NCBI GenBank assembly: GCA_030602715.1
Contig: JAUVZD010000013.1
Coordinates: 1 to 48,565 of the forward strand
Source of the DNA: Candidatus Coatesiibacteriota bacterium
GTDB lineage: Bacteria; RBG-13-66-14; B26-G2; JAUVZD01
Reading direction: 5' to 3'
DNA length: 48,565 bases
How positions within the stretch are numbered: the stretch's first letter is position 1; each line of letters starts with the position of its first letter. The position numbers were made by a program, and so were the translations under genes. Below the pieces are notes generated by a model. That model saw only the letters and a list, made by a program, of their open reading frames with translations. It had not been told where the DNA came from and ran no database searches. This document shows positions 695 to 40,440 of the stretch, in pieces.

Positions 695-1873
695 GTGTTA
701 AGGGAGCAGATTAAAAAGTCCAAGGCTTTTCTCTGCCTGGAGTGCGGGAAGTGCGCCGCTGTCTGTCCCATCGCCCGACGCAACAGCGGTTACTCCCCCC
801 GTCGCCTCCTCTCCCAAGCCATCGCCACAGATAACCCCGACACCCTGCACGACGAAGCCCTCTCCTCCTGCCTGACCTGCATGGCTTGCGACCCCATCTG
901 CCCCTCCGGTATCAGCATGACCTATGTCATCAAGGATATCCGCCAGGCGGTGGGGTTCAGTAGTAAGGGGACGGTGTGCAGTCATTCGGGGGCAATGCAA
1001 TCGCTTATGCACCTCATGAACTCAGAGAACCTGACCCAGAACCGCCTGGATTGGCTTTCGGAAGAGCCGGAACTTGCGACCTCCAAAAAAGGGGATACGC
1101 TCCTCTTCATAGGCTGTCTGCCTTACTTTGATGTCTTCTTTGCCGAACAGGGAGCCAAAACCCTCCAGATAGCCAAAAGTGCGGTGAGGGTGCTCAACGC
1201 CATCGGTATCAAGCCGGTGATACTTCCCAACGAGCGCTGTTGCGGGCATGACCTGGTCTGGTCGGGGGATGAGGAGGGCTTCCGGCGGCTCGCCGAACAC
1301 AACATAGCCGAGATCACTAAAAGCGGGGTAAAGAGGGTAATCTTCACCTGCCCGGAGTGCCTGCTCGCCTTCCGTCAGGACTATCCCTCCCTGGGAATTG
1401 ATATGCCCTTTGAAACCTTACACATCACCGAGTTGCTGAGGGGGGAGATGCAGGGGCTTGGCGCCGAATATGAGCTGGATAAGGATGAAACCGTGGTCAC
1501 CTTCCAGGACCCCTGTCGGTTGGTGCGCCATCTGGGGATAGAGGAAGACCCTCGCCATGTTTTGGGCTGGATAAAAGGCAAGAGACTCCACGAAATGGAA
1601 CGGCATGGGAAGAGGGCGCTCTGCTGTGCCGGAAACACCTGGCTCAACTGCGACCGTTTCTCCAAGGAGATACAGGTGGAGCGTCTGCGGGAGGCGAAAG
1701 CGACCGGTGCAGAAGTTCTAATCACCGCCTGCCCCAAGTGCCAGATACATTTTTCCTGCGCCATGCAGGACCCCATGCTGGGGGAGGAGATAAAGATAGA
1801 GATGAAGGACATCACCCAGCTTCTGGCGGAGTCGCTGAAAAAGAGGGAGGAGGGGGAGGGGGAGGGGGGATAG
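695..1873 (+). CDS. HdrD-like iron-sulfur protein (two 4Fe-4S motifs plus two CCG domains)
   Basis: This is a cytoplasmic HdrD/GlpC-type protein. Residues 15-75 contain two ferredoxin-type motifs (CLECGKCAAVCP and CLTCMACDPICP). Two CCG domains follow: GCLPYF, RCCGHD and CPEC, then DPCRL, LCCAGN and CPKC. CCG domains bind non-cubane [4Fe-4S] clusters used for disulfide chemistry in heterodisulfide reductases. The start is GTG, with AAGGG at 684-688 six bases upstream. The stop is followed by accessory DNA rather than by hdrA. The last ~100 bases of the gene recur downstream at 2758-2802 and 3550-3661. The C-terminus ends in a short Glu/Gly repeat encoded by a polypurine run. The substrate cannot be told from sequence; GlpC- or lactate-oxidase-type roles remain possible. 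Confidence 0.88.
   Translation: MLREQIKKSKAFLCLECGKCAAVCPIARRNSGYSPRRLLSQAIATDNPDTLHDEALSSCLTCMACDPICPSGISMTYVIKDIRQAVGFSSKGTVCSHSGAMQSLMHLMNSENLTQNRLDWLSEEPELATSKKGDTLLFIGCLPYFDVFFAEQGAKTLQIAKSAVRVLNAIGIKPVILPNERCCGHDLVWSGDEEGFRRLAEHNIAEITKSGVKRVIFTCPECLLAFRQDYPSLGIDMPFETLHITELLRGEMQGLGAEYELDKDETVVTFQDPCRLVRHLGIEEDPRHVLGWIKGKRLHEMERHGKRALCCAGNTWLNCDRFSKEIQVERLREAKATGAEVLITACPKCQIHFSCAMQDPMLGEEIKIEMKDITQLLAESLKKREEGEGEGG
1756..1858 (+). repeat. Direct repeat copy 1: 3' end of the hdrD-like gene
   Basis: This is the segment inside the intact HdrD-like gene that recurs downstream. Bases 1769-1830 are identical to 3563-3624 (62 of 62). Similarity extends outward on both sides with scattered mismatches. 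A shorter third copy lies at 2758-2802. Confidence 0.9.
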
Positions 1874-2005
1874 AGCGTTGAAAGAAATAAAAAATTCACT
1901 AGGAGCTTGATGAGTAGTGATATATCTAATTTTTTACACATAATTTGTGGAAGGGATTATTAAATATCAACAATTTATTGGATTTACCAAATAAGGAGGA
2001 AAAGG

Positions 2006-2287
2006 ATGAATGTTGAAGAGATAAAAGAAAAAATACTTCCAAAACTCAAAGAATATGGTGCTAAAAAAGCTGGACTATTCGGTTCTGTGGTAAGAGGTGA
2101 GTTAGAAGAAGATAGTGATGTGGATATACTTGTTGAACTTCCTGAGGAAGCAAGCCTTCTTGACCTAGTAGGACTTAAAATAGAGCTTGAGGAACTTCTG
2201 GGTAGAGAAGTAGATGTATTAACCTATAATTCTTTGTATCCCCATCTTAGAGAAGTAATACTAAGTGAAGAGGTGGAGATATTGTGA
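2006..2287 (+). CDS. mntA: MntA-type minimal nucleotidyltransferase antitoxin (first pair)
   Basis: This is a 93-residue minimal nucleotidyltransferase. The catalytic signature is GLFGSVVRG at residues 23-31 followed by SDVDI, with the two metal-binding aspartates at 38 and 40. In characterised MntA/HepT (type VII toxin-antitoxin) pairs, the MNT protein AMPylates its HEPN partner and silences it. The ATG follows a strong AAGGAGG. The stop overlaps the next gene's GTG by four bases (GTGA), as is typical of a co-translated pair. The coding DNA is more A+T-rich than the flanking hdr genes, which suggests transfer. Family assignment is confident; activity of this pair is inferred. Confidence 0.88.
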
Positions 2288-2637
2288 AAAAAGACCCCAA
2301 AATAAATATTACATTTATTATAGAATGCATTGAACTTATTGAGAAATATCTGGAGGATATGACAGAAAGTGAATTTATTAAATCTCCCATAAAACAGGAT
2401 GCAGTTATTAGACGAATTGAACTGATTGGTGAGGCGGTTAAGAATATACCTCAGTATATTTTGGATAAACACCCAGAGGTTCAATGGAGGAAGATTGCTG
2501 GGATGAGAGATATACTGATTCATGATTATTTAGGGATTGATTTGAAAATTACATGGACGGTTGCTCAAAATGAGATTCCGAGATTGAAGAAAAAGATGTT
2601 AAAGATTAAAAAGGACTTTGAGAAACAGGATGCATAA
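2284..2637 (+). CDS. hepT: HepT-type HEPN (DUF86) toxin, first pair
   Basis: This is a 117-residue all-helical HEPN/DUF86 protein. It carries the R-x4-H-x-Y ribonuclease motif as RDILIHDY: R75, H80, Y82. The tyrosine of this motif is the residue AMPylated by MntA in studied pairs. A conserved [10 protein letters not shown] segment lies at residues 45-54. The GTG start overlaps the mntA stop. Directly after the stop, the sequence aggatgcataa, which ends the gene, is repeated. Degraded nucleotidyltransferase coding sequence follows, pointing to an older rearrangement at this edge. Confidence 0.88.
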
Positions 2638-2652
2638 ATTAAAGGATGCATA

Positions 2653-2802
2653 AGTAATGATATTGGTAAAGCCATAGAATTTGATGAGGATAATGGAAAG
2701 ACCCCTCTGAGCTTAGTAAGTATAGAAAATTATTTGAGTGAACCGTTCAATAGGAATGCGGAGTCGCTGAAGAATAAGAGGAAAGGTGAGGGGGAGGGAT
2801 AA
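2653..2802 (+). pseudogene. Remnant of an MNT gene joined in frame to a copy of the hdrD-like 3' end
   Basis: From 2653 one frame reads like the middle of the second MntA protein: SNDIGKAIEF here against SDIDIAIEF there. The similarity continues through an FDEDNGK segment and a region matching LVRIEYELSKLFKR. At about 2758 the same frame passes into AESLKNKRKGEGEG and a TAA. That tail is the HdrD-like C-terminus, and its DNA matches 3621-3658 better than 1827-1865. No start codon or N-terminal GS motif is present, so it is a fossil. It also provides the second of three hdrD-like 3' end copies. Confidence 0.7.
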
Positions 2803-2856
2803 GCTAGGCACTAGTTGTAGAAGCACCCTATCCAGATGAAAAACCGGTAAAGGACA

Positions 2857-3183
2857 ATGATTAAAATTAAAAACATTCCCCCTCCGCTACGAAAAAAGGG
2901 GCTAGAGGAAGAACTGCTCAGGATATGTGAGGAAAACGACCTGGTCTTTATGGGTATATTCGGCTCTTTTGTCAGAGGAGAAGATAGCAAGAAAAGCGAC
3001 ATTGATATAGCAATAGAGTTTGATGAGAATAACGGTAAAAGCCTCCTAGATTTAGTCCGTATAGAATATGAGCTGAGCAAATTATTTAAGAGAAAAGTTG
3101 ACCTGGGAATTTTAAGCACCATAAGCCCATACATAGAGGAATACGTAAAGAAGGAGATGTGCGTTATCTATGAAAAAAGATAA
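2857..3183 (+). CDS. mntA: MntA-type minimal nucleotidyltransferase antitoxin (second pair)
   Basis: This is a 108-residue nucleotidyltransferase with GIFGSFVRGE at residues 33-42 and KKSDIDIAIEF following; the catalytic aspartates are D48 and D50. It is clearly divergent from the protein at 2006-2287, so this is a second, separately acquired pair rather than a recent tandem copy. The ATG follows AAAGGA. The 3' end overlaps the next gene by 14 bases. By homology it would neutralise its HEPN partner by AMPylation. Confidence 0.87.
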   Translation: MIKIKNIPPPLRKKGLEEELLRICEENDLVFMGIFGSFVRGEDSKKSDIDIAIEFDENNGKSLLDLVRIEYELSKLFKRKVDLGILSTISPYIEEYVKKEMCVIYEKR

Positions 3184-3517
3184 GGCATATCTTCTGGATA
3201 CACTGGAAGCGATTGTTGATATTGAGAAATTCTTAGAAAATGTAACTTGCGAGGAATTTTGCGAGAATAAAGAGAAGCAGTATGCGGTAATTAGAGCACT
3301 TGAGATAATTGGAGAGGCGACAAAGAATTTAAGCAGAGAGTTCAGGGAAAAGCATCGTGAAATTCCCTGGAGGGACATTGCCGGTATGAGGGATAAGTTG
3401 ATTCATATGTACTTTGGTGTAAAACTTGAATTAGTCTGGGAAACAGTCAAAATTAAACTTCCTGAGCTTAAGGATCAAATAACCGTTATAATGCAAGATG
3501 TAAAAAACACCAGGTAA
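3170..3517 (+). CDS. hepT: HepT-type HEPN (DUF86) toxin, second pair
   Basis: This 115-residue HEPN protein has the R-x4-H-x-Y motif as RDKLIHMY (R74, H79, Y81) and the ALEIIGEATKN segment seen in DUF86 proteins. It starts inside the 3' end of the second mntA gene, so expression is probably coupled. It is related to, but distinct from, the first HepT. Its stop lies 32 bases before the third copy of the hdrD-like 3' end, so the second pair lies exactly between two such copies. Confidence 0.87.
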   Translation: MKKDKAYLLDTLEAIVDIEKFLENVTCEEFCENKEKQYAVIRALEIIGEATKNLSREFREKHREIPWRDIAGMRDKLIHMYFGVKLELVWETVKIKLPELKDQITVIMQDVKNTR

Positions 3518-3549
3518 AACACCGGCAGACCCCAAAGACCCTTTAAACT

Positions 3550-3661
3550 CTGCGCCGTGAAAGACCCCATGCTGGGGGAGGAGATAAAGATAGAGATGAA
3601 GGACATCACCCAGCTTCTGGCGGAATCGCTGACGAATAAGAGGAAGGGGGAGGGGGAGTGA
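3550..3661 (+). repeat. Direct repeat copy 3: displaced 3' end of the hdrD-like gene
   Basis: Bases 3563-3624 are identical to 1769-1830. Flanking bases match with a few changes, and the copy ends in frame at TGA (3659-3661), just as the intact gene ends. It has no start codon. Small differences (gacgaataagaggaa here, gaaaaagagggagg in the intact gene) look like strain-level allelic change rather than random decay. The following ~125 bases to 3787 contain no gene that I recognise. Confidence 0.88.
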
Positions 3662-3787
3662 TGTTAATGAATGATGTTGTAATCTGTTCAAATTTAATAC
3701 ACCTGTTGTTCAATGTTAATCTCCCTATATTGAGTGTATAGTTTGAATTTAATCTAAGTAATGTATCACGAATTGAAAGGTTGTTCT

Positions 3788-4346: not shown

Positions 4347-5285
4347 ATGAAAACCAAACAGTTAATCGAAGGGGCTATTTTTGTTATCTGCATTTCTTTA
4401 GTATTCTTCCTCATGATTATTGGATGTAAAAAACAAACAATACAAACAACAAAAGTTGAAGAGGCTGAATACTTAGCCAGATATGATAGCTTCTTAAAAA
4501 TCACATGCGAAGCCGAACCACAAGAAGATGGGGTGCTATACATCTCAATAATTTATGAAATAGACAGAGAAGAATTTTTTGGACAAAAAGGACTGGACCC
4601 TGTCAAAAATAAAAGTTTGCCAATAACTTTTGAAATAGAAAAAATAATATATCTTTCTGAAGGCAACCTCATACAGACTTTGAATCTTACTGGGGCTGAT
4701 AAGGAAGAAGGGGTAAAGAGGATAATTAATGAATACCCCAAGAATATTAGAGTTAAATATGGTTTGGCTCCCTTAGTATGCAAAGTTGATTTCTATGATA
4801 ATCAAACAGTTGATAATTGGAGTTCTTACCCAATGTTCCCAAATATGTCAAATAAAACTGAGGGAGCCATTGTAGTTTACAACGAACTAGGTCATACAAG
4901 TGGTTCTGTGCAGATATTTGGAAATTGCGGCATGAAAAGCTATTATGACTATAAAGAACCTGGTTCAGAAATTTTCATCCTAAAAGAAAAACCTTTAGAG
5001 AAGCCCTTATTTATTCGCGAGATTGAAGTAGGTGTTGATAGTGTTGTTGAAAATACATCATTTGGGGGAGAAAGTAAGACGAGTGATTGTATTATTGTAA
5101 TCGCCACAAAAGGACTCAACATTAGAAAAGGACCAGGAGATAATTACGATATTATTGGCACAATCACATATCAAGAAAAAGCAACCAAGATAGATGAAAG
5201 CAAGGGTTGGTATAAAATCAAATGTAAAGGCGGAACTGTCGGGTGGATATGTAGTGGGATGGATGGAGAAATTTGGGTGGAATGA
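4347..5285 (+). CDS. Lipoprotein with C-terminal bacterial SH3 (SH3b) domain
   Basis: This is a 312-residue secreted lipoprotein. The N-terminus has a hydrophobic signal and the lipobox IIGC with Cys27 as the lipidation site. Residues 30-240 match nothing I recognise. Residues 247-305 form an SH3b domain (GLNIRKGPGDNYDIIG, then a GWYKIK strand and GWICSG). Such domains usually bind cell-wall peptides or protein ligands. The ATG follows an excellent AAAGGAG. The gene is A+T-rich like its RipA-like neighbour, and both lie between the third hdrD-like repeat and hdrA. They may therefore be part of the same accessory block. Confidence 0.8.
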   Translation: MKTKQLIEGAIFVICISLVFFLMIIGCKKQTIQTTKVEEAEYLARYDSFLKITCEAEPQEDGVLYISIIYEIDREEFFGQKGLDPVKNKSLPITFEIEKIIYLSEGNLIQTLNLTGADKEEGVKRIINEYPKNIRVKYGLAPLVCKVDFYDNQTVDNWSSYPMFPNMSNKTEGAIVVYNELGHTSGSVQIFGNCGMKSYYDYKEPGSEIFILKEKPLEKPLFIREIEVGVDSVVENTSFGGESKTSDCIIVIATKGLNIRKGPGDNYDIIGTITYQEKATKIDESKGWYKIKCKGGTVGWICSGMDGEIWVE

Positions 5286-5345
5286 TTGATATTTGCATAA
5301 AAGCATGACAACAGAGACTTCACACCGAAAGGAGGTGAACAGCAG

Positions 5346-7805
5346 ATGCCTCAAGGGACAACGGGACTCCGCATAGGCGTCTTCGTCTGCGACTGCGGGC
5401 TGAACATCGCCGGCATGGTGGATACCGAGGCGGTAGCCAAGTTTGCCGAAACCCTGCCGGATGTTGCTGCAGTGGTGCGCAACAAATATACCTGCGCCGA
5501 GCCCGGTCAGAACGAGATAAAAAACGCCATCAAGGAACACAAGCTCAACCGGGTGGTGGTCGCCTCCTGCACCCCGCTTATGCATGAGCCCACCTTCCGC
5601 AACTGTTGCGCCGAGGCGGGGCTCAACCCCTACCTCTTTGAGATGGTCAACTTGCGGGAGCACTGCAGTTGGGTGCACTCCACATACATGGAGAAAGCCA
5701 CCAAGAAGGCTAAAGACATGGTGAAGCAGGGCGTGGCTCGTGCCCGCCTGCTCTCCGAGCAGAGGGAGCTTTCCGTTCCGGTTACCAGAAAGGCGATGGT
5801 TATCGGCGGAGGTGTAGCCGGCATCCAGGCTTCTCTGGATTTGGCTGATTCCGGCTATCAAGTCTATCTGGTGGAGAAGGAGCCCTCCATCGGGGGGCTG
5901 ATGGCTCAACTGGACAAGACTTACCCCACCATGGACTGCTCCATATGAATTTTGGGGCCCAAGATGATGGATACGGGTCGGCATCCATTGATAGAACTGA
6001 TGGCTTACAGCGAGGTGGAGGACGTCTCCGGTTATGTGGGGAATTTCAAGGTAAAGGTGCGCAAGAAAGCCCGCTATGTTGACGAGGAGGTCTGCAACAG
6101 CTGTGATGAGTGCGTCAAGGTCTGTCCGGTAAGCGTGCCCGACGAATACCAGATGGGCTTCTCCAGCCGTAAGGCGATATATCTACCTTTCGGTCAGGCG
6201 GTGCCCTCAACCCATCTTATAGATATGGAAGCCTGCCTGGGCATCAACCCCATCGCCTGTGGGAAGTGCGCCGAGGTCTGCGAGCAGAACTGCATAGATT
6301 TTGACATGAAGGACGAGTTCGTGGATGTAGAGGTGGGGGTAATAATCGTAGCCACGGGGATGGATGTCTATGACCCCACGGAGATGGACGAATACTGCTA
6401 CACCGAATACGATAATGTCATCACCTCCATGGAGTTTGAGCGCCTGATCTGCGCCGGAGGACCCACCGAGGGGCACTTCATCCGTCCTTCCGACCACAAG
6501 CGACCCATGCGCATCGGTTTCATCCAGTGCGTGGGCAGTCGCTCGCACAGCGCCATCGGCAACCCCTACTGCTCCAACATCTGCTGTATGAACACGGTAA
6601 AGGACACCCTGCTTCTTGCGGACCACTATCCCGATGTGGAGTGTAAGGTCTTCTATATAGACATCCGTGCCTTCGGCAAGGGCTTTGAGGACCTGTATAT
6701 CCGCTCCAAAGAGGCTGGGGTAAAATATATCCGTGGTCTGCCCGGCGAAATCAGGGAGGATGCAAAGACCAAGAACCTGGTCCTGACCGTGGAGAACACC
6801 ACTACCAGTCAGGTGGAGGAACACGAGCTGGATTTGGTGGTGCTTTCGGTGGGGGTAATCCCCCGCCAGGACGGCGACGGCATCAAGGAACTATTCACCC
6901 TCTCCCGCACCGCCGACGGGTTCTATATGGAATCGCACCCCAAACTGAAGCCGGTGGATACGCCCACAGCGGGGGTCTATCTTGCGGGATGCGCCGAAGG
7001 ACCCAAAGACATCAAAGACAGCGTCACCCAGGCGAGCGCAGCCGCCGCCCGATCCGAGATTCTGCTCAACAAGGGCAGTATCAAAGCAGCAGCAATAACC
7101 AGCGTGGTTGACGACGATTTGTGCACCGGCTGTGGCGTCTGCGGACCGGTCTGCCCCTACGGAGCCATCATCGTTGACCCAAAGACCAAGGCAAAGGCTC
7201 AGGTCATAGAGGCGGCTTGCGCCGGCTGCGGAAACTGCGGCGCCGCCTGCAGATTCGGGGCTATCACCATGAGACACTTCACCGATGCCCAGATATTTGC
7301 CCAGATAGACTCCATCCTGGAAGAGGACAACATGGAGAAGGTGGTGGTATTTGCCTGCAACTGGTGTAGCTACGCCGGAGGGGACTTCGCCGGCATCTCC
7401 CGACTGCAGTATCCGGAAAGCCCCCGTCTGATACGCACCATGTGCTCGGCACGGGTGGACGAGGAGTTCGTCAAATACGCCTTCCGCAAGGGAGCGGCGA
7501 TGGTGCTGGTCTCCGGTTGCCACTACACCGATTGCCACTACATCAGCGCCAATCGCCAGACGGTCAAGCGGGTGCAACGGCTGTGGGATTTCTTGGAGCG
7601 AAACAACATCCGCCCGGAGCGCCTCCAGCTGGAATGGATATCCGCCGCCGAGGCACAGAAGTTCGCCAAAGTGATGCGCAGTATAGAGGAAATGCGCAAG
7701 CAGGTGACCGAAGAAGAGGTTGAGGAGACCATGAAGACGCTAACCGCACTGGAGAAGAAGATGCGGGCAAAGAAAGAGAAGAAGATGGAGAAGGTGGCTA
7801 CCTGA
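5346..7805 (+). CDS. hdrA: HdrA-MvhD fusion, probable selenoprotein (TGA at codon 201)
   Basis: HdrA is the FAD-containing electron-bifurcating subunit of soluble heterodisulfide reductase. The gene reads through one in-frame TGA (5946-5948) to give 819 residues. The FAD motif GGGVAG is at 154-159. The TGA falls in YPTMDCSI-U-ILGPKM, where most HdrA proteins have Cys (CSACIL-PKM); archaeal HdrA selenoproteins use Sec at this kind of position. Two 4Fe-4S motifs follow (CNSCDECVKVCP; CGKCAEVCEQNC). A two-cluster ferredoxin domain lies near residues 585-640 (CTGCGVCGPVCP; CAGCGNCGAAC). Residues 663-790 are an MvhD domain (CNWCSY, CSARV, SGCHYTDCHY). A Lys/Glu-rich tail ends the protein. AAAGGAGGTG precedes the ATG. 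Stop-split annotation as two genes would be wrong. Confidence 0.88.
5946..5990 (+). promoter_or_regulatory. Candidate bacterial SECIS element after the hdrA TGA
   Basis: The TGA at 5946-5948 is followed by a hairpin. Its 5' arm is ATGGAT (5967-5972) and its 3' arm ATCCAT (5983-5988). The apical region is ACGGGTCGGC, which contains GGTC, the loop sequence of the Escherichia coli fdhF element. The loop begins about 24 bases after the TGA, inside the spacing range used by bacterial SelB. The stem is short and no folding was computed, so this is a candidate. Confidence 0.55.
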
Positions 7806-29450: not shown

Positions 29451-31178
29451 ATGGAAAAGAGATACATCATCGCACTGGTATTAATCTTTGTTATTCTGGT
29501 AGGCTATAGCCTCATAATGGGATATATCCGTGGGGAAGAACCAAAGGTGGAGGAGAAGGAGGAGTTGGCCGAGGAGGAGGTGGTTTTAGAGAAGGAGGAG
29601 GAAGAGGTCGTTGTTGAGGAGAGGGAGCAGGAAGAACCTCTGCAGGTGGAGGTGGAGGAGATAGTCGTTGAGCCGGTGGAGGTAGAGGAGCCCCAGCCTG
29701 TAGCCGAGGAGGAAGTAGAGATTGTTGAGCCGGTGGAGAAGAAGGAGATACCGGTCTCGGTAGTGGTGGGTGAAATTTTAGACCTGACACTGGTGAACGG
29801 CGAGATTGTAGAGTATCATTTCACCAAGTATGAAAAACGGGACCCGGAGGATAAACAACCCCTGATCACCAACGAAGTTAAGGCGCCCCCCTTAACGATT
29901 GAGTTTGAAAGCGTTGTCCTGCAGAGAATAGCCGGTTACGGCTTTGTCCCCGACAAGGAGAGGATAGTTATCGGGGAGGGCAAGGACGAGACCCTTACCC
30001 TGGTGGCGGAGGATCCCAGCGACCCGGAACGGAAGCTGATAGAGCGCATCACCTTCCACGGGCAAAGCTACATGCTGGATGTAGAAGTGGAGACGGTGGG
30101 CTTGGAGGAGGAGCTGGAGAAGGGCTTCCGGGTCTGGGCGGGAAACTTCTACGACCCCGAGGATGAGTGGAATCATAAGAATGTCAAAGTGCTGACCAAA
30201 GTTGGGGATGAAAAGGAGAAGGATGAGCTGGGAAAGGACTCCGGGGAGATCGCCCACGAGGGAGCGATAAACTGGACCGCGTTAAACAGCAAGTATTTCG
30301 CCTCCATCATCGTTCCCCAACCGGGGGACTGCAAAGGGGCATACATCTATCGCAGTAAGAACGAACTTCTGGGGGTGGTGGCACAGCTTGAGGAGGGGAA
30401 GCCCTTTCGGCTCTATTTTGGACCCTTGGAATACGACCGCCTGAAAGGATATGAGCTTTCCCTGGAGTGGAATGTGGACATGGGCTGGTCCTGGATTGCG
30501 CCCATAAGCAGGGTCTTTTTAAAGATGATGGAGTGGAGCAACCGGGTGACCGGAAACTACGGGGTGGATATCGTCATCCTGTCAGTCTTGCTCAAAGTAT
30601 TGCTTCTGCCCTTGACCCAGCGAGCGCTCCGGTCTTCAAAGTCAATGCAGATGCTCCAGCCGAAGATAGCGGAACTAAAGGAGAAACTTAAAGGCGAGCC
30701 GGAGAAGCTCAATAAGGAGACTTTTGCATTATACAAGAAATATAAGATTAATCCCCTGGGTGGATGCCTCCCCCTCCTTCTGCAGATGCCCATCTTCATA
30801 GCCCTCTTCAACGCCCTGCGCAATGCGGTGGAGCTGTATGGAGCAAAGTTCACCCTGTGGATAACCGACCTGTCCCAGGCTGACGCCCTCTTTCGTCTGC
30901 CGTTTACAATACCCCTTCTAAACACCGACAAGTTCAGTCTGTTGCCCATTTTGATGATCGTTGCCATGGTGGTGCAGAATAGACTCACCACTCAGGGAAA
31001 GGGAGGCAAGAAGGGCGATCAACAGAAGATGATGGCTTTTCTGCCCATTATCTTCGGGTTCATCTTCTATACCATGCCCTCGGGTCTGGTGTTGTATTGG
31101 CTTATCAACACCGTCTTGACCATATTGCAACAGCATTACATGGTAAAGCCGGTGGAAGCCCTGAAGGAGGAGAGGTAA
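29451..31178 (+). CDS. yidC: Membrane protein insertase YidC
   Basis: YidC inserts and folds inner-membrane proteins. The 575-residue product has a first transmembrane helix (IIALVLIFVILVGYSLIMG), a long acidic Glu/Val-rich stretch (residues ~25-95), then the periplasmic beta domain (~105-345). The conserved insertase core follows with GVDIVILSVLLKVLLLPLT, INPLGGCLPLLLQMPIFIAL and GLVLYWLINTVLTILQQ. The periplasmic domain indicates the Gram-negative type. The last ~58 bases recur at 31324-31385. RnpA::YidD lies directly upstream, a natural partnership. Confidence 0.96.
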   Translation: MEKRYIIALVLIFVILVGYSLIMGYIRGEEPKVEEKEELAEEEVVLEKEEEEVVVEEREQEEPLQVEVEEIVVEPVEVEEPQPVAEEEVEIVEPVEKKEIPVSVVVGEILDLTLVNGEIVEYHFTKYEKRDPEDKQPLITNEVKAPPLTIEFESVVLQRIAGYGFVPDKERIVIGEGKDETLTLVAEDPSDPERKLIERITFHGQSYMLDVEVETVGLEEELEKGFRVWAGNFYDPEDEWNHKNVKVLTKVGDEKEKDELGKDSGEIAHEGAINWTALNSKYFASIIVPQPGDCKGAYIYRSKNELLGVVAQLEEGKPFRLYFGPLEYDRLKGYELSLEWNVDMGWSWIAPISRVFLKMMEWSNRVTGNYGVDIVILSVLLKVLLLPLTQRALRSSKSMQMLQPKIAELKEKLKGEPEKLNKETFALYKKYKINPLGGCLPLLLQMPIFIALFNALRNAVELYGAKFTLWITDLSQADALFRLPFTIPLLNTDKFSLLPILMIVAMVVQNRLTTQGKGGKKGDQQKMMAFLPIIFGFIFYTMPSGLVLYWLINTVLTILQQHYMVKPVEALKEER

Positions 31179-31184
31179 GGGGGG
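31123..31184 (+). repeat. Direct repeat copy 1: yidC 3' end
   Basis: The last codons of yidC, the stop and a following G run recur 201 bases downstream. Both copies read in frame to a stop (ending KEER here and KEEA there). Confidence 0.85.
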
Positions 31185-31323
31185 AATTTGGGAATTTAGG
31201 TTTGTTTGTAACGCTTATAGCTAATGGATGGTTTAGCGGGAAGCGATAATCCGACGCAAAATCACGAATAAATGGTTACTTTTCGCCCTGTATTCTGAAA
31301 AACGCACCTTTTTTGATTGTTAC

Positions 31324-31385
31324 ATTTGCAACAGCGTTATATGGTAAAGCCGGTGGAAGCCCTGAAGGAGGAGGCGTAAGGGGGG
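31324..31385 (+). repeat. Direct repeat copy 2: displaced yidC 3' end
   Basis: This copy matches 31123-31184 apart from a few substitutions: GCGTTATATGG against GCATTACATGG, and GGCGTAA against GAGGTAA. It keeps the yidC frame and ends in TAA. The ~140 bases between the copies contain no recognised gene. The restriction-modification genes start 57 bases later. Confidence 0.85.
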
Positions 31386-31441
31386 TTTGAAGAGTAAATG
31401 TTGTTTGGAACTTGATTTTAGAAAGAATAGGAGAAGTTTTT

Positions 31442-32317
31442 GTGGAAGTTGAGCATGAAATATATAAAGAGGATTGCCTCGGTTGGTTGAAGAGGTGTTC
31501 TGGAAATGGGTTTCACCTTTCTTTTATTGATCCTCCATTTAGGCAGGGTAAAGATTATAGGTTTTTTGATGACAATCAACCTGAAAAAGAATATTGGGAT
31601 TGGTTGAAGGATGTTGTGTTGGGAATATTTGAAAATACTGTTAAGGGTGGGGCTATATATTTTATGCAGAGAGAGAAGAACACAGAAAATGTATTATGTT
31701 TACTTAGAGAGACCGGGTGGAGTTTTCAGAATTTAATAATTTGGAAGAAGAAAACATCAGCAGTTCCTTGTGAATCAAGATATTCTAAGCAGTATCAAAT
31801 TATTTTATTTGCTACCAAGGGTAAGAAGCCTAGGTTGTTCAACAGACTAAGGATAGATTTGCCTGTTCCTGCCAACTATAAATATGAAAGACCGAATGGC
31901 GTTTATGTTACTGATGTATGGGATGATATCAGAGAGTTAACATCAGGATATTTTGCCGGGGATGAAGCAATAAGGGATGGCAAAGGGAAAAGGGTTCATA
32001 AGCAACAGTCACCCATATCTTTACTTCTTAGAATTGTGCTTACTTCCACTGTTCCTGGTGATACTGTGTTTGACCCTTTTGCGGGAACGGGTACTACATT
32101 GCTTGTCGCAAATCAGCTAAAACGTAATTCAATAGGGATAGAAATAGACCCCGAATACTTTGAGATTATTGAAAATCGTTTAAATTACTTAAGGTCTGCT
32201 GACGACATAACTAAGCACCATAACTATTATCGTTTCACTGAAAATATTAGCGAGATTTGGGTGGGGGAAAAGAGACCAATTGTTCCAGAACAAAGGAGCC
32301 TTTATCAAGATGTATAA
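31442..32317 (+). CDS. Site-specific DNA methyltransferase (beta-class motif order)
   Basis: This is a DNA amino-methyltransferase. The catalytic motif DPPF is at residues 30-33, and the SAM-binding motif FDPFAGTGTTLLVA begins at residue 210, followed by IGIEIDPEYFEI. That order (IV before I) marks the beta class. DPP favours N6-adenine, though N4-cytosine is not excluded. GTG 31442 is chosen for its AGGAG eight bases upstream; TTG 31412 would add ten residues. The stop overlaps the next gene by eight bases. It is A+T-rich compared with yidC and mnmE, which suggests transfer. It should protect host DNA from the adjacent nuclease. Confidence 0.88.
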   Translation: MEVEHEIYKEDCLGWLKRCSGNGFHLSFIDPPFRQGKDYRFFDDNQPEKEYWDWLKDVVLGIFENTVKGGAIYFMQREKNTENVLCLLRETGWSFQNLIIWKKKTSAVPCESRYSKQYQIILFATKGKKPRLFNRLRIDLPVPANYKYERPNGVYVTDVWDDIRELTSGYFAGDEAIRDGKGKRVHKQQSPISLLLRIVLTSTVPGDTVFDPFAGTGTTLLVANQLKRNSIGIEIDPEYFEIIENRLNYLRSADDITKHHNYYRFTENISEIWVGEKRPIVPEQRSLYQDV

Positions 32318-33299
32318 ATATGAAGATGTGGTATCCTTCTATGTAAGGCTGGTAGATATATTAAAATCAGGAAAAGTAAATCCTCATGCTCTATTAGAGG
32401 AGATTAGTTTATCAGCTGGAAAGGACAATTTTGCATATATAGATAATAGAAGGGATGCGAAAGCGAAATATGGTTATGACTTCTGGGATCAAATTAGGGA
32501 TAATTTTGAGGATGAAGAACAATTTATTAATAGTTTAAAAGGCATATTAGAAAATAGACTTTTATATAGCAAATCGGAGCAGTTTCCAGATTTTTTGTTT
32601 AAAGTTAGGAAGCATGCTGGCAAGTTAATTTGTGGCAGTCTTTTAGAATTGAAGAGTTCAAAAAGTGGAACAATAGCATCGTTTAACTCAACACTTCCTA
32701 CAAAATGCAAGAGCCTTGATGAAATAAATTTGATAAATGGTAAAACACTTGTTTCAAGAATAGCTTCAATTATTGACAAAGAGCTTGCATCAGATAAATT
32801 ATATAGTACTTTTGATAGAAGATGTTTTTATCTTATAAGAACACACACAGATAATGATGATAAAGTAAAAATTTCCATTGTGGATGGCAAGTTCTTTGAA
32901 ACAATTCCTAAAGACCATCTGATATATCAAATGTTTCTAAATGTTTTACATAGACATTTAAATGAAAAAAGAATTGAAATCTCTAATAATAAACTCAATG
33001 AGGTTGAAAAAGCTCTTTCTTTTATAACGGATCAGACAATAATTTCCAGCTCACAACTTATAGAAAAAGCATCCATCAGACCAAGATTGAGAATTATGGC
33101 AGAAGTACATCCAGAGGGAAATCCACATAGTATTTTTTATCCCCAAATATCAGCAAAAAGCGTGAATCTAATCATTAGTGCATCCTCAATAGATGAAGAA
33201 TTTCTAAATAAAGTGTCAAGAAGTGTTCCAGATATATCTGTTTTCACGGTTAAACATAAGAGGAATGGAGAACATATTGTATTTCAATATAATTTGTAA
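32310..33299 (+). CDS. Probable type II restriction endonuclease partnered with the methyltransferase
   Basis: I do not recognise the specific family. The ~329-residue protein has a PD-(D/E)XK-like arrangement: P93-D94 in FPDFLFKV, then E113-L-K115 in GSLLELKSS. It directly follows and overlaps a DNA methyltransferase, the usual layout of a restriction-modification pair. Conserved-looking C-terminal text includes RLRIMAEVHPEGNPHSIFYP. AAAGGAG lies 11 bases before ATG 32310; a longer reading from 32280 would lie inside the methyltransferase gene. Recognition sequence is unknown. A+T content matches its partner. Confidence 0.72.
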   Translation: MYKYEDVVSFYVRLVDILKSGKVNPHALLEEISLSAGKDNFAYIDNRRDAKAKYGYDFWDQIRDNFEDEEQFINSLKGILENRLLYSKSEQFPDFLFKVRKHAGKLICGSLLELKSSKSGTIASFNSTLPTKCKSLDEINLINGKTLVSRIASIIDKELASDKLYSTFDRRCFYLIRTHTDNDDKVKISIVDGKFFETIPKDHLIYQMFLNVLHRHLNEKRIEISNNKLNEVEKALSFITDQTIISSSQLIEKASIRPRLRIMAEVHPEGNPHSIFYPQISAKSVNLIISASSIDEEFLNKVSRSVPDISVFTVKHKRNGEHIVFQYNL

Positions 33300-33496
33300 A
33301 GAACCAAATGTAAAATGAATCCTGGAAAATCATAGTAGCTGGTTCCCTATGAACATTATGCAGATTGCTATGCACTCAAAGATTAGCTCCAGAATAGTTG
33401 AAAATGACTTGTGCAGAGGAATCAATAAGATATGAATTTAATGCACAAAAATGACAATGAGAGTTAAGAATCGCATATAAGCATAAAAATCAGTGG

Positions 33497-33521
33497 GGGG
33501 CTGTCCAGCCCCTATTTCTTT
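33497..33521 (+). terminator. Probable terminator between the restriction genes and mnmE
   Basis: GGGGCT and AGCCCC form a stem around GTCC, followed by TATTTCTTT. It sits just before the mnmE start, so it could also act as an mnmE leader hairpin. The 33300-33490 stretch shows nothing recognisable. Confidence 0.5.
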
Positions 33522-33531
33522 ACCAGTTGAG

Positions 33532-34929
33532 ATGAGTTACATCAGTGACACCATTGTGGCAACCGCTACACCACCAGGCAGAGGTGGGCTGGGTGTGGTG
33601 CGCATAAGCGGTCCGCAGGCGCTTTCCGTGGTTCATAAACTCTTCCGACCGCTTTCGGGTGGTGAGTGCCCCTTTGAGCCCCGCAGGCTCTATCTGGGGG
33701 ATATCCTGTCCGGAAAAGGGGGAGAGGTTTTAGACAGGGTGATGGCGGTGTATATGCCCGCTCCGGCAAGTTACACCCGGGAGGATGTGGTGGAGATAAG
33801 CTGTCACGGTGGCGGGGCTGTGGCGAACTTGATTGTGGAAAGGATTATGGAGTTGGGGGTGAGGCACGCCGAGGCTGGGGAGTTCACCCGTCGTGCGTTT
33901 CTTAACGGGGCGATGGATATCACCATGGCTGAGGCGGTCGCCGAGCTATCCAAGGTGGGAAGTCCCCTGGGAGCGAGCATCGCAGCAGCCAACCTGAAGG
34001 GGGAGCTCTCCGGGAAGTTGCGGGAGCTGAAGGATAGTGCGGTCATACTGCGGGCGGAGGTGGAGGCGAGGATTGAGTTTGAGGAGAATGTGGGGAAACT
34101 GGACCGTGAGGGGACATACGGGAAGCTGGATGAGCTGGCGTCTGAGATAGAGGAGTTGTTGGGAAGTTACCGCACCTATCGCCTGCTTAGAAGGGGAGTG
34201 GAGGTGATAATATGCGGAAGGGTGAATGTGGGCAAGACCACCCTGTTCAACCGCCTGCTGGGTAGTGAACGGGGACTGGTGGATAGGACCGCCGGCACCA
34301 CCCGGGATTGGATTGCGGAGGAGATTGAGATAGGCGGTGTGCGGGTGAGGCTGGTGGATACCGCCGGGTTTGGGCTTGCCCTGCGGGGATTGGACGGAAG
34401 GGCTGTAGCCAGAAGCGAGGAGCTCCTTGGGGAGGCGGAAAGAATCGTCTATATGCTGGATGCCACCGGGGGAGTCTGTAAGGAGGATGTTGTGCGAATT
34501 GAGGAAAATATAAATAGAGGGGTTGAACAGATAGTGGTCTTGAACAAGGTGGATATAGCCAAAGATTATCAAAAAGTGTTAGCTGAGTATAGCAATAACA
34601 TAAAGGATGGGGTCAAAATTATCCCCATAAGCGCAAAAAGCGGTCAGGGAATGGAGGAGTTCAATTCAGCCCTTGCGGATATGGTGGGGATATCCACTAA
34701 GGAAGGAGCGGACAGGATATTCGTCAACACCCGGAGACAGTATCGCCTCCTCAGGCAGATTGCGGAAGATGTAACTTCAGCGAAGGGGGAGATAAAGCCG
34801 GTGGAAAGGATAGAGGTGCTGGCATATCTTCTGACCAACATCCAGGAGGGTTTTGAACAACTTCTCGGCGAGCGATATGATGAGGATATGCTGGAGGAGA
34901 TTTTTACAAACTTCTGCATCGGAAAATAG
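33532..34929 (+). CDS. mnmE: tRNA uridine-5-carboxymethylaminomethyl GTPase MnmE
   Basis: MnmE, with MnmG, modifies the wobble uridine of certain tRNAs. The N-terminal folate-binding domain begins [22 protein letters not shown]. The G domain has [12 protein letters not shown] (G1), [10 protein letters not shown] (G2), DTAGF (G3) and NKVD (G4), and the protein ends in the conserved FCIGK. ATG 33532 fits the family N-terminus; the longer GTG reading (33493) runs through a hairpin and adds non-family residues. The ribosome site is weak. mnmG follows 18 bases later. Confidence 0.95.
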
Positions 34930-40363: not shown

Positions 40364-40399
40364 TTGCTAGTTGCTATAATATAGTATAGCAAGTAGCAA
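40364..40399. repeat. Near-perfect 36-base inverted repeat
   Basis: TTGCTAGTTGCTATA (40364-40378) and TATAGCAAGTAGCAA (40385-40399) match as inverted arms at 14 of 15 positions around ATATAG. It abuts the next hairpin (terminator) without a gap. No T run follows it, so it is not itself a standard terminator. Confidence 0.65.
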
Positions 40400-40440
40400 A
40401 AGGAGGTAGATGCCCGGGCATTTACCTCCTTCTCTTTTTA
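40400..40440 (+). terminator. Terminator of the parAB-M23-bactofilin unit
   Basis: AAGGAGGTAGATGCCC pairs with GGGCATTTACCTCCTT (40400-40431), with only one wobble in the stem, followed by CTCTTTTTAT. This is an unusually long stem. Confidence 0.85.

Follow-up and report, generated by a model that had tools for sequence, protein, structure and literature searches.

A yidC-end copy beside a putative restriction-modification pair, and recurring gene-end copies, in a Candidatus Coatesiibacteriota genome

Comparisons of related genomes suggest that restriction-modification (R-M) genes of all types can insert in a way that generates long target duplications of variable length, according to PMC3031569. 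Insertion with long target duplication in Helicobacter pylori is credited to Nobusato et al. 2000, Gene 259:99, in PMC1643837, and a case is also named in PMC4978471. Homology-facilitated illegitimate recombination and, separately, single crossing-over of circularised DNA are described in connection with E. coli conjugation experiments (PMC3240628). Such events are already known; the unusual part of what we report here is their density and stacking, and we do not claim that stacking is unpublished.

We analysed the region between yidC and mnmE in one window, i.e., a whole stretch of 48,565 nt. As in insertion with long target duplication, a long stretch of target (60 nt, 56 of them identical) occurs twice in direct orientation next to R-M genes and is single-copy in relatives (13/13 loci). 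The two R-M genes are not enclosed by the copies, however; both follow copy 2, and only 141 nt separate the copies. We therefore do not file the pair as a member of this group. The echA/accC boundary discussed below differs from these descriptions too, since it stacks several fillings and some of its repeats fuse the ends of both neighbours. There, the related genome G004 does have an insert between direct target copies, with the empty site found in G005.

With regard to homology-facilitated illegitimate recombination as described in PMC3240628, the likeness is in the expected product, which is homologous on one side and illegitimate on the other; the evidence there is experimental and from E. 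coli, while ours is read from sequence. Where that product would join by long homology and by short or no homology, we find short overlaps at 3 joints and no source at 10/13. No integrase accompanies the element among the proteins scanned, as it would in an integrase-type genomic island.

The repeated yidC end and the island behind it

The features of the locus, and of a parallel case in the same window, are listed in Table 1.

Table 1. Features of the yidC-mnmE region and of the parallel case at the start of the window
Feature	Position	Strand	Basis
yidC, intact, 575 aa	29451..31178	+	PF02096 + PF14849
Repeat copy 1 = yidC 3' end, stop + 6 nt	31125..31184	+	self-comparison
Spacer, 141 nt, AT-rich, without gene; leftover of resident sequence or lost insert	31185..31325		ORF, GC, genome and Rfam searches
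Repeat copy 2 = yidC 3' end fragment with own TAA	31326..31385	+	56/60 identical to copy 1
AT-rich island in the slot of order/class relatives' jag	31386..33531		GC profile; jag between yidC and mnmE in G001-G006
DNA methyltransferase (N6_N4_Mtase), GTG start behind AGGAGAAG	31442..32317	+	PF01555, E 1e-44
Putative restriction endonuclease, 329 aa, no family match	32310..33299	+	homologous pair in G183
mnmE, native downstream neighbour	33532..34929	+	PF10396, PF12631
Parallel case: 3' end of gene 695-1873	1756..1864	+	90% over 109 nt to 3550-3658
Partial third copy of the end of gene 695-1873, between two MntA/HepT-like pairs	2758..2800	+	repeat search
Second copy of the end of gene 695-1873, own stop	3550..3658	+	repeat search

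The repeat unit comprises the last 54 nt of yidC including the stop plus 6 nt. Both copies are direct, 93% identical and 201 nt apart from start to start (E 9e-21 in a 5.6-kb self-comparison). The initial annotation, made from the letters, had put the repeat at about 58 bases including the stop and the gene-free stretch between the copies at 140 bases, which is correct to a few bases; the 141 nt hold no internal ORF of at least 60 aa. Three codons differ between the copies. Beside the two changes already noticed there, i.e., CAT/CGT (H/R) and AGG/GCG (R/A), we find a synonymous TAC/TAT difference, such that one synonymous stands against two non-synonymous changes. Frame and TAA are kept in both copies.

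The spacer has a GC content of 36.9%. The genome holds no other full copy of it (besides itself, 3 matches of 14-19 nt, E 2 to 4), and no similarity was found to the region before mnmE, to the mnmE start or to the sequence before yidC; similarity to the sequence behind copy 2 is weak. It has no Rfam match and folds no better than its shuffles (z 0.73). The spacer may be sequence that was already behind the resident yidC; it is also possible that it is the scar of a lost cassette, as had been proposed initially. We also considered whether the repeat is an RNA element or a terminator. The former is unsupported (no Rfam match, no unusual fold), and for the latter a terminator scan returned one site, located before mnmE, and none in the repeat.

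Behind copy 2, the GC content drops from 0.52 in yidC to 0.37 in the methyltransferase gene and 0.30 in the putative endonuclease gene, and is 0.55 in mnmE. The best solved match of the methyltransferase is the MboIIA methyltransferase (E 1.3e-19), and PADLOC type II methyltransferase models match as well. The locus thus resembles type II R-M systems with an N6_N4 (MboIIA-like) methyltransferase in the methyltransferase family and the adjacent partner gene. It differs in the partner, which has no match in Pfam, NCBIfam or PADLOC and no relative in plasmid, phage or viral collections. Among 290 genomes one relative besides itself was found, and a single-sequence structure model was unusable (mean pLDDT 37). 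We call the partner an endonuclease given its position, the homologous pair in the distant genome G183 and a PD...ELK stretch seen by eye. That is, the methyltransferase half of the R-M pair named in the initial annotation is confirmed, whereas the endonuclease is putative only. In G183, the homologous two-gene pair lies between argG and a hydrolase gene (flanks named by eye), and the end scan described below found no gene-end copy alongside. The pair thus looks like a moving cassette.

In six order or class relatives (G001-G006), the place between yidC and mnmE is taken by jag, which starts 0-2 nt past the yidC stop or overlaps it. An R3H-family search of 14 genomes recovered jag in those six, and a profile of five Jag proteins matched the same six. 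Both searches came back empty for the window's genome (G000) and for all seven f5-family phylum relatives (G007-G013). Because the six relatives keep jag at this position and none was found in G000, we conclude that the R-M island occupies jag's place.

According to the initial annotation, its interpretation would be refuted by relatives that have the same duplication but no accessory genes nearby. No such case was seen: the duplication is present at 0/13 yidC loci from relatives at order, class and phylum level, which are distant with yidC identities of 38-47%, and 16 further, more distant yidC loci gave one 14-nt match of chance size. The yidC end of an order relative (ELEERR*) is closer to copy 1 (KEER*) than to copy 2 (KEEA*) by one residue only, which does not tell the native copy. 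Neither the location of the island in jag's place nor the recurrence of gene-end copies across the genome, to which we now turn, was part of the initial annotation.

Gene-end copies across the genome

For the end scan, we took the 45 codons at each end of 748 genes and searched for them in the surrounding DNA, up to 6 kb on either side, covering 886 kb or 38% of G000. Matches had to reach E <=1e-5 and an identity of >=65% while covering less than half of the protein; weaker matches with E from 1e-3 to 1e-5, of which G006 has many, were set aside. In a first repeat scan, a script had removed tandem pairs, paralogues and repeats within one ORF. Copies of the 3' end were found for 13/748 genes and copies of the 5' start for 2/748, and 15/15 are direct. 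The 3' excess may partly stem from uncertain start codons. Ten of the 13 derive from 680 genes on three contigs that were run at length and had been noticed for their methyltransferase genes; of the remaining three, two are in the window and one is at a purposely picked methyltransferase locus (L114).

As controls, we scanned relatives in the same way. No copy was found among 321 genes in G001, 165 genes in G005 and 88 genes at other relatives' yidC loci, while G002 yielded 1/177 and G006 1/176. The G006 match falls on an antisense ORF that is itself doubtful, and we scored it as evidence against our claim. Excluding the 88 yidC-locus genes, Fisher's test gives p 0.008 for 10/680 vs 2/839 and p 0.003 for 13/748 vs 2/839, where G001 and G002 were sampled in pieces of at most 20 kb, many of them shorter, which lowers the chance of a match.

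The copies recur beside accessory genes. Host genes include HSP70 (dnaK), enoyl-CoA hydratase (echA), radical-SAM, Memo-like, DEAD helicase and DUF454 genes. Nearby we find an Mrr-type endonuclease, a GmrSD-type protein, N6_N4 and D12 methyltransferases, a MntA/HepT-like pair and an HNH protein as well as a transglutaminase, a beta-propeller (PQQ) protein and a pentapeptide protein. Among the genes discussed below, accA and gene 695-1873 were named or recognised by reading only.

The layout of the yidC locus, i.e., gene, short spacer, gene-end copy and methyltransferase genes, is repeated on contig C10. There, 87 nt separate the DUF454 gene end (32150-32213) from its copy (32301-32363, 81%), behind which lie N6_N4 and D12 methyltransferase genes. 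In the window at 695-3662, two MntA/HepT-like pairs, of which the first has Pfam support, lie between copies of the end of gene 695-1873, and every copy is in frame with its own stop.

Stacking is seen at the echA/accC boundary (C4:68956-73504, locus L141), which we compared with the loci L206, L208 and L209 of relatives. In order of transcription, L141 reads echA, X1, accC-start|echA-end, X2, accC-start|echA-end, X3 (Mrr), accC. One fusion has an overlap of 7 nt (TGCCGGG, with an eighth base shared by accC alone) and the other one of 8 nt (ATAGCCAA), and X1, X2 and X3 show no mutual similarity (blastn). This is the arrangement expected if several alternative fillings have been joined one behind the other in a single slot. 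An order of the form 'echA - X - accC-start|echA-end - Y - accC' can also result from circularisation and a single crossing-over, which PMC3240628 also mentions. A third fused joint, with an imperfect 15-nt overlap, is found at C4:234987-235210 between radical-SAM and SDF transporter genes. The other neighbour's start is visible at these three of the 13 joints tested and at no other; for the remaining 10/13 no source was found.

Among the class relatives, the slot is empty in G005, where echA and accC are 42 nt apart. In G004, a pair of MntA/HepT-like genes (assigned by reading) comes after the echA stop, and 61 nt of the echA end are then repeated directly ahead of accC. Between its echA and accC, G002 carries a similar pair and two further genes together with one copy of the echA end and two of the accC start. 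Thus, the slot is empty in one relative, once filled in another and repeatedly filled in G002 and G000, which indicates repeated reuse; it also follows that gene-end copies are not confined to one assembly. The echA-end copy runs directly into the next start, with TAAATG in G002 (first accC-start copy) and TGAATG in G004 (accC), much as yidC abuts jag in the relatives. The copy hence preserves the upstream signals of the next gene, which may be a reason for its retention. We further observed that truncated accC starts in G002 (L206 5600-5707 and 4893-5084) make up small leader ORFs, each of which terminates at, or runs into, the start of the inserted gene behind it, which resembles translational coupling.

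Codon differences between copies and genes vary among loci. Given a neutral expectation of 0.19-0.28 synonymous, the ratios of synonymous to non-synonymous changes are 14:2 and 10:0 for echA copies and 9:2 for accA. Near-neutral ratios are seen for methyltransferase (2:6), Memo (1:3), gene 695-1873 (1:7), helicase (2:3), yidC (1:2) and the G002 echA (0:2), and other comparisons are intermediate or too small. The mainly synonymous differences of echA and accA suggest that some copies had already diverged, as functional genes of other lineages, by the time they arrived. The idea of the initial annotation that the yidC copies are two alleles of the same gene end fits this wider pattern, in which several copies keep frame and stop, while the yidC counts by themselves decide nothing.

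Some further repeats and features were noticed. At L112, a 523-nt accA-like gene end is repeated (2457-2978 / 4825-5347, 96%) with a transglutaminase/TPR gene between the copies and a methyltransferase gene adjoining. G002 has, at L229 3357-8523, two copies of the 3' end of a 415-aa gene that looks by eye like an aminotransferase; ORFs in the vicinity have the C-terminal motif PTSLGRVK in common, which resembles the end of the gene at C4:258642 in G000. An apparent 23S rRNA 3' end, named by eye, is repeated directly at C3:436829-437001 / 438257-438427 (173 nt, 84%) with two low-GC ORFs in between; it stands outside the end-copy count. Repeats at C3:45435 and C3:164545 were left out of the count as tRNA-like by eye. 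The window itself contains two adjoining self-complementary stretches of 36 and 32 nt at 40364-40431 (self-comparison). An ORF at L114 4783-5295 reads like a LigD phosphoesterase domain (by eye), despite no Ku gene being found in the 14 genomes searched.

Origin of the yidC arrangement

The copy of the yidC end probably marks the point at which foreign DNA was spliced in. The reading that we favour, at a little short of an even chance, is that a donor fragment, which began in its own yidC end and brought the R-M pair with it, became attached behind the resident yidC. The donor would be a relative in which the R-M pair was already located behind yidC. Incoming DNA would start within the last ~54 nt of the donor yidC, such that copy 2 is its leading edge, and the join would be made after 141 nt of resident or leftover sequence, with homology on the mnmE side probably anchoring the incoming piece. 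The resident yidC would stay whole, while the new genes are added at jag's usual place and jag is lost. From the arrangement of the sequences we infer the donor, the order of events, which is not proven, and a mechanism with homologous joining at one side and illegitimate joining at the other.

Several of the above observations support this joining: the second locus on C10, the accC-start|echA-end fusions, the synonymous-rich echA and accA copies, the frequency of 3'-end copies together with their uniformly direct orientation, and the low GC of an R-M pair that has a homologous pair in a distant genome. On the other hand, the differences between the yidC copies are not synonymous-rich and six other comparisons look neutral. 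We found no donor genome, what precedes copy 2 shows no similarity to the mnmE side, a neighbour's start is visible at only 3/13 joints, and the G183 pair has no adjoining gene-end copy. Nor was a Ku gene found in the 14 genomes searched, though the mechanism does not require Ku.

The main rival, close to the cassette-loss idea of the initial annotation, is that a cassette inserted behind yidC with long target duplication, leaving the copied end in front of jag; reduction of the cassette to the 141 nt would have come later, and the R-M pair would have replaced jag separately. G004 shows the clean form of such an insertion at echA, with the site being empty in G005, and a copied yidC end would retain the upstream signals of a jag that starts at the yidC stop. 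No cassette gene remains between the yidC ends, however, and two events are needed, yet the C10 locus has the same order of short spacer, copy and methyltransferase. We regard this course as somewhat unlikely. Both it and the joining of a donor fragment are forms of one process, i.e., the end of a neighbour is copied or carried as accessory DNA enters a gene boundary.

Slippage could instead have duplicated about 201 nt (yidC end plus spacer) in tandem; the copies would then have diverged, and R-M genes would have inserted in an unrelated event, either within the second spacer or after it. This would explain the spacing and the direct orientation, and the dnaK end copies, which accompany 88%-identical neighbouring genes, do look like plain tandem duplication. 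It predicts a second spacer behind copy 2. Here, a mononucleotide-shuffle test was weakly positive (22/2000), but with dinucleotide shuffles the similarity is at chance level (26/300 and 62/300 do as well). As the echA fillings between end copies are also unrelated to each other, a local duplication seems improbable to us.

That two strain versions of the yidC-mnmE region were placed in series during assembly is very improbable. A faulty join could yield serial alleles with short overlaps, which we judge from the assembly alone. But the copies differ from their genes by a few to ~19%, unlike one strain mixture, the assemblies of G002 and G004 carry gene-end copies at the same echA/accC site, and the G000 assembly has 18 contigs and a contamination of 0.78. 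Finally, gene 3' ends are common attachment sites and many of the repeats are 50-80 nt long, yet we consider an integrase-type element attached at the yidC 3' end the least likely source of all, given that 0/30 proteins at copy loci and 0/5 at the yidC locus match integrase or transposase families (part of the ORFs scanned) and that a 361-nt query over the yidC repeat matches only itself in the genome, such that the loci share no site.

How defence genes that have no integrase or transposase of their own enter chromosomes is an unsettled question. Our tentative answer, for which we see a real if minor chance, is that this bacterial class has a standing, integrase-free entry route for small accessory cassettes into core-gene boundaries, with R-M, MntA/HepT-like, Mrr, GmrSD and other genes as cargo. 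Entries would mostly bring or copy 45-125 nt of the neighbour's end, and the boundary would stay reusable, such that stacked copies record arrivals. If this holds, both neighbours and their translation signals would survive each entry. With one boundary that is empty, once filled and repeatedly filled across related genomes, and with many joints at hand, the entry mechanism would become readable and could be tested in the laboratory.
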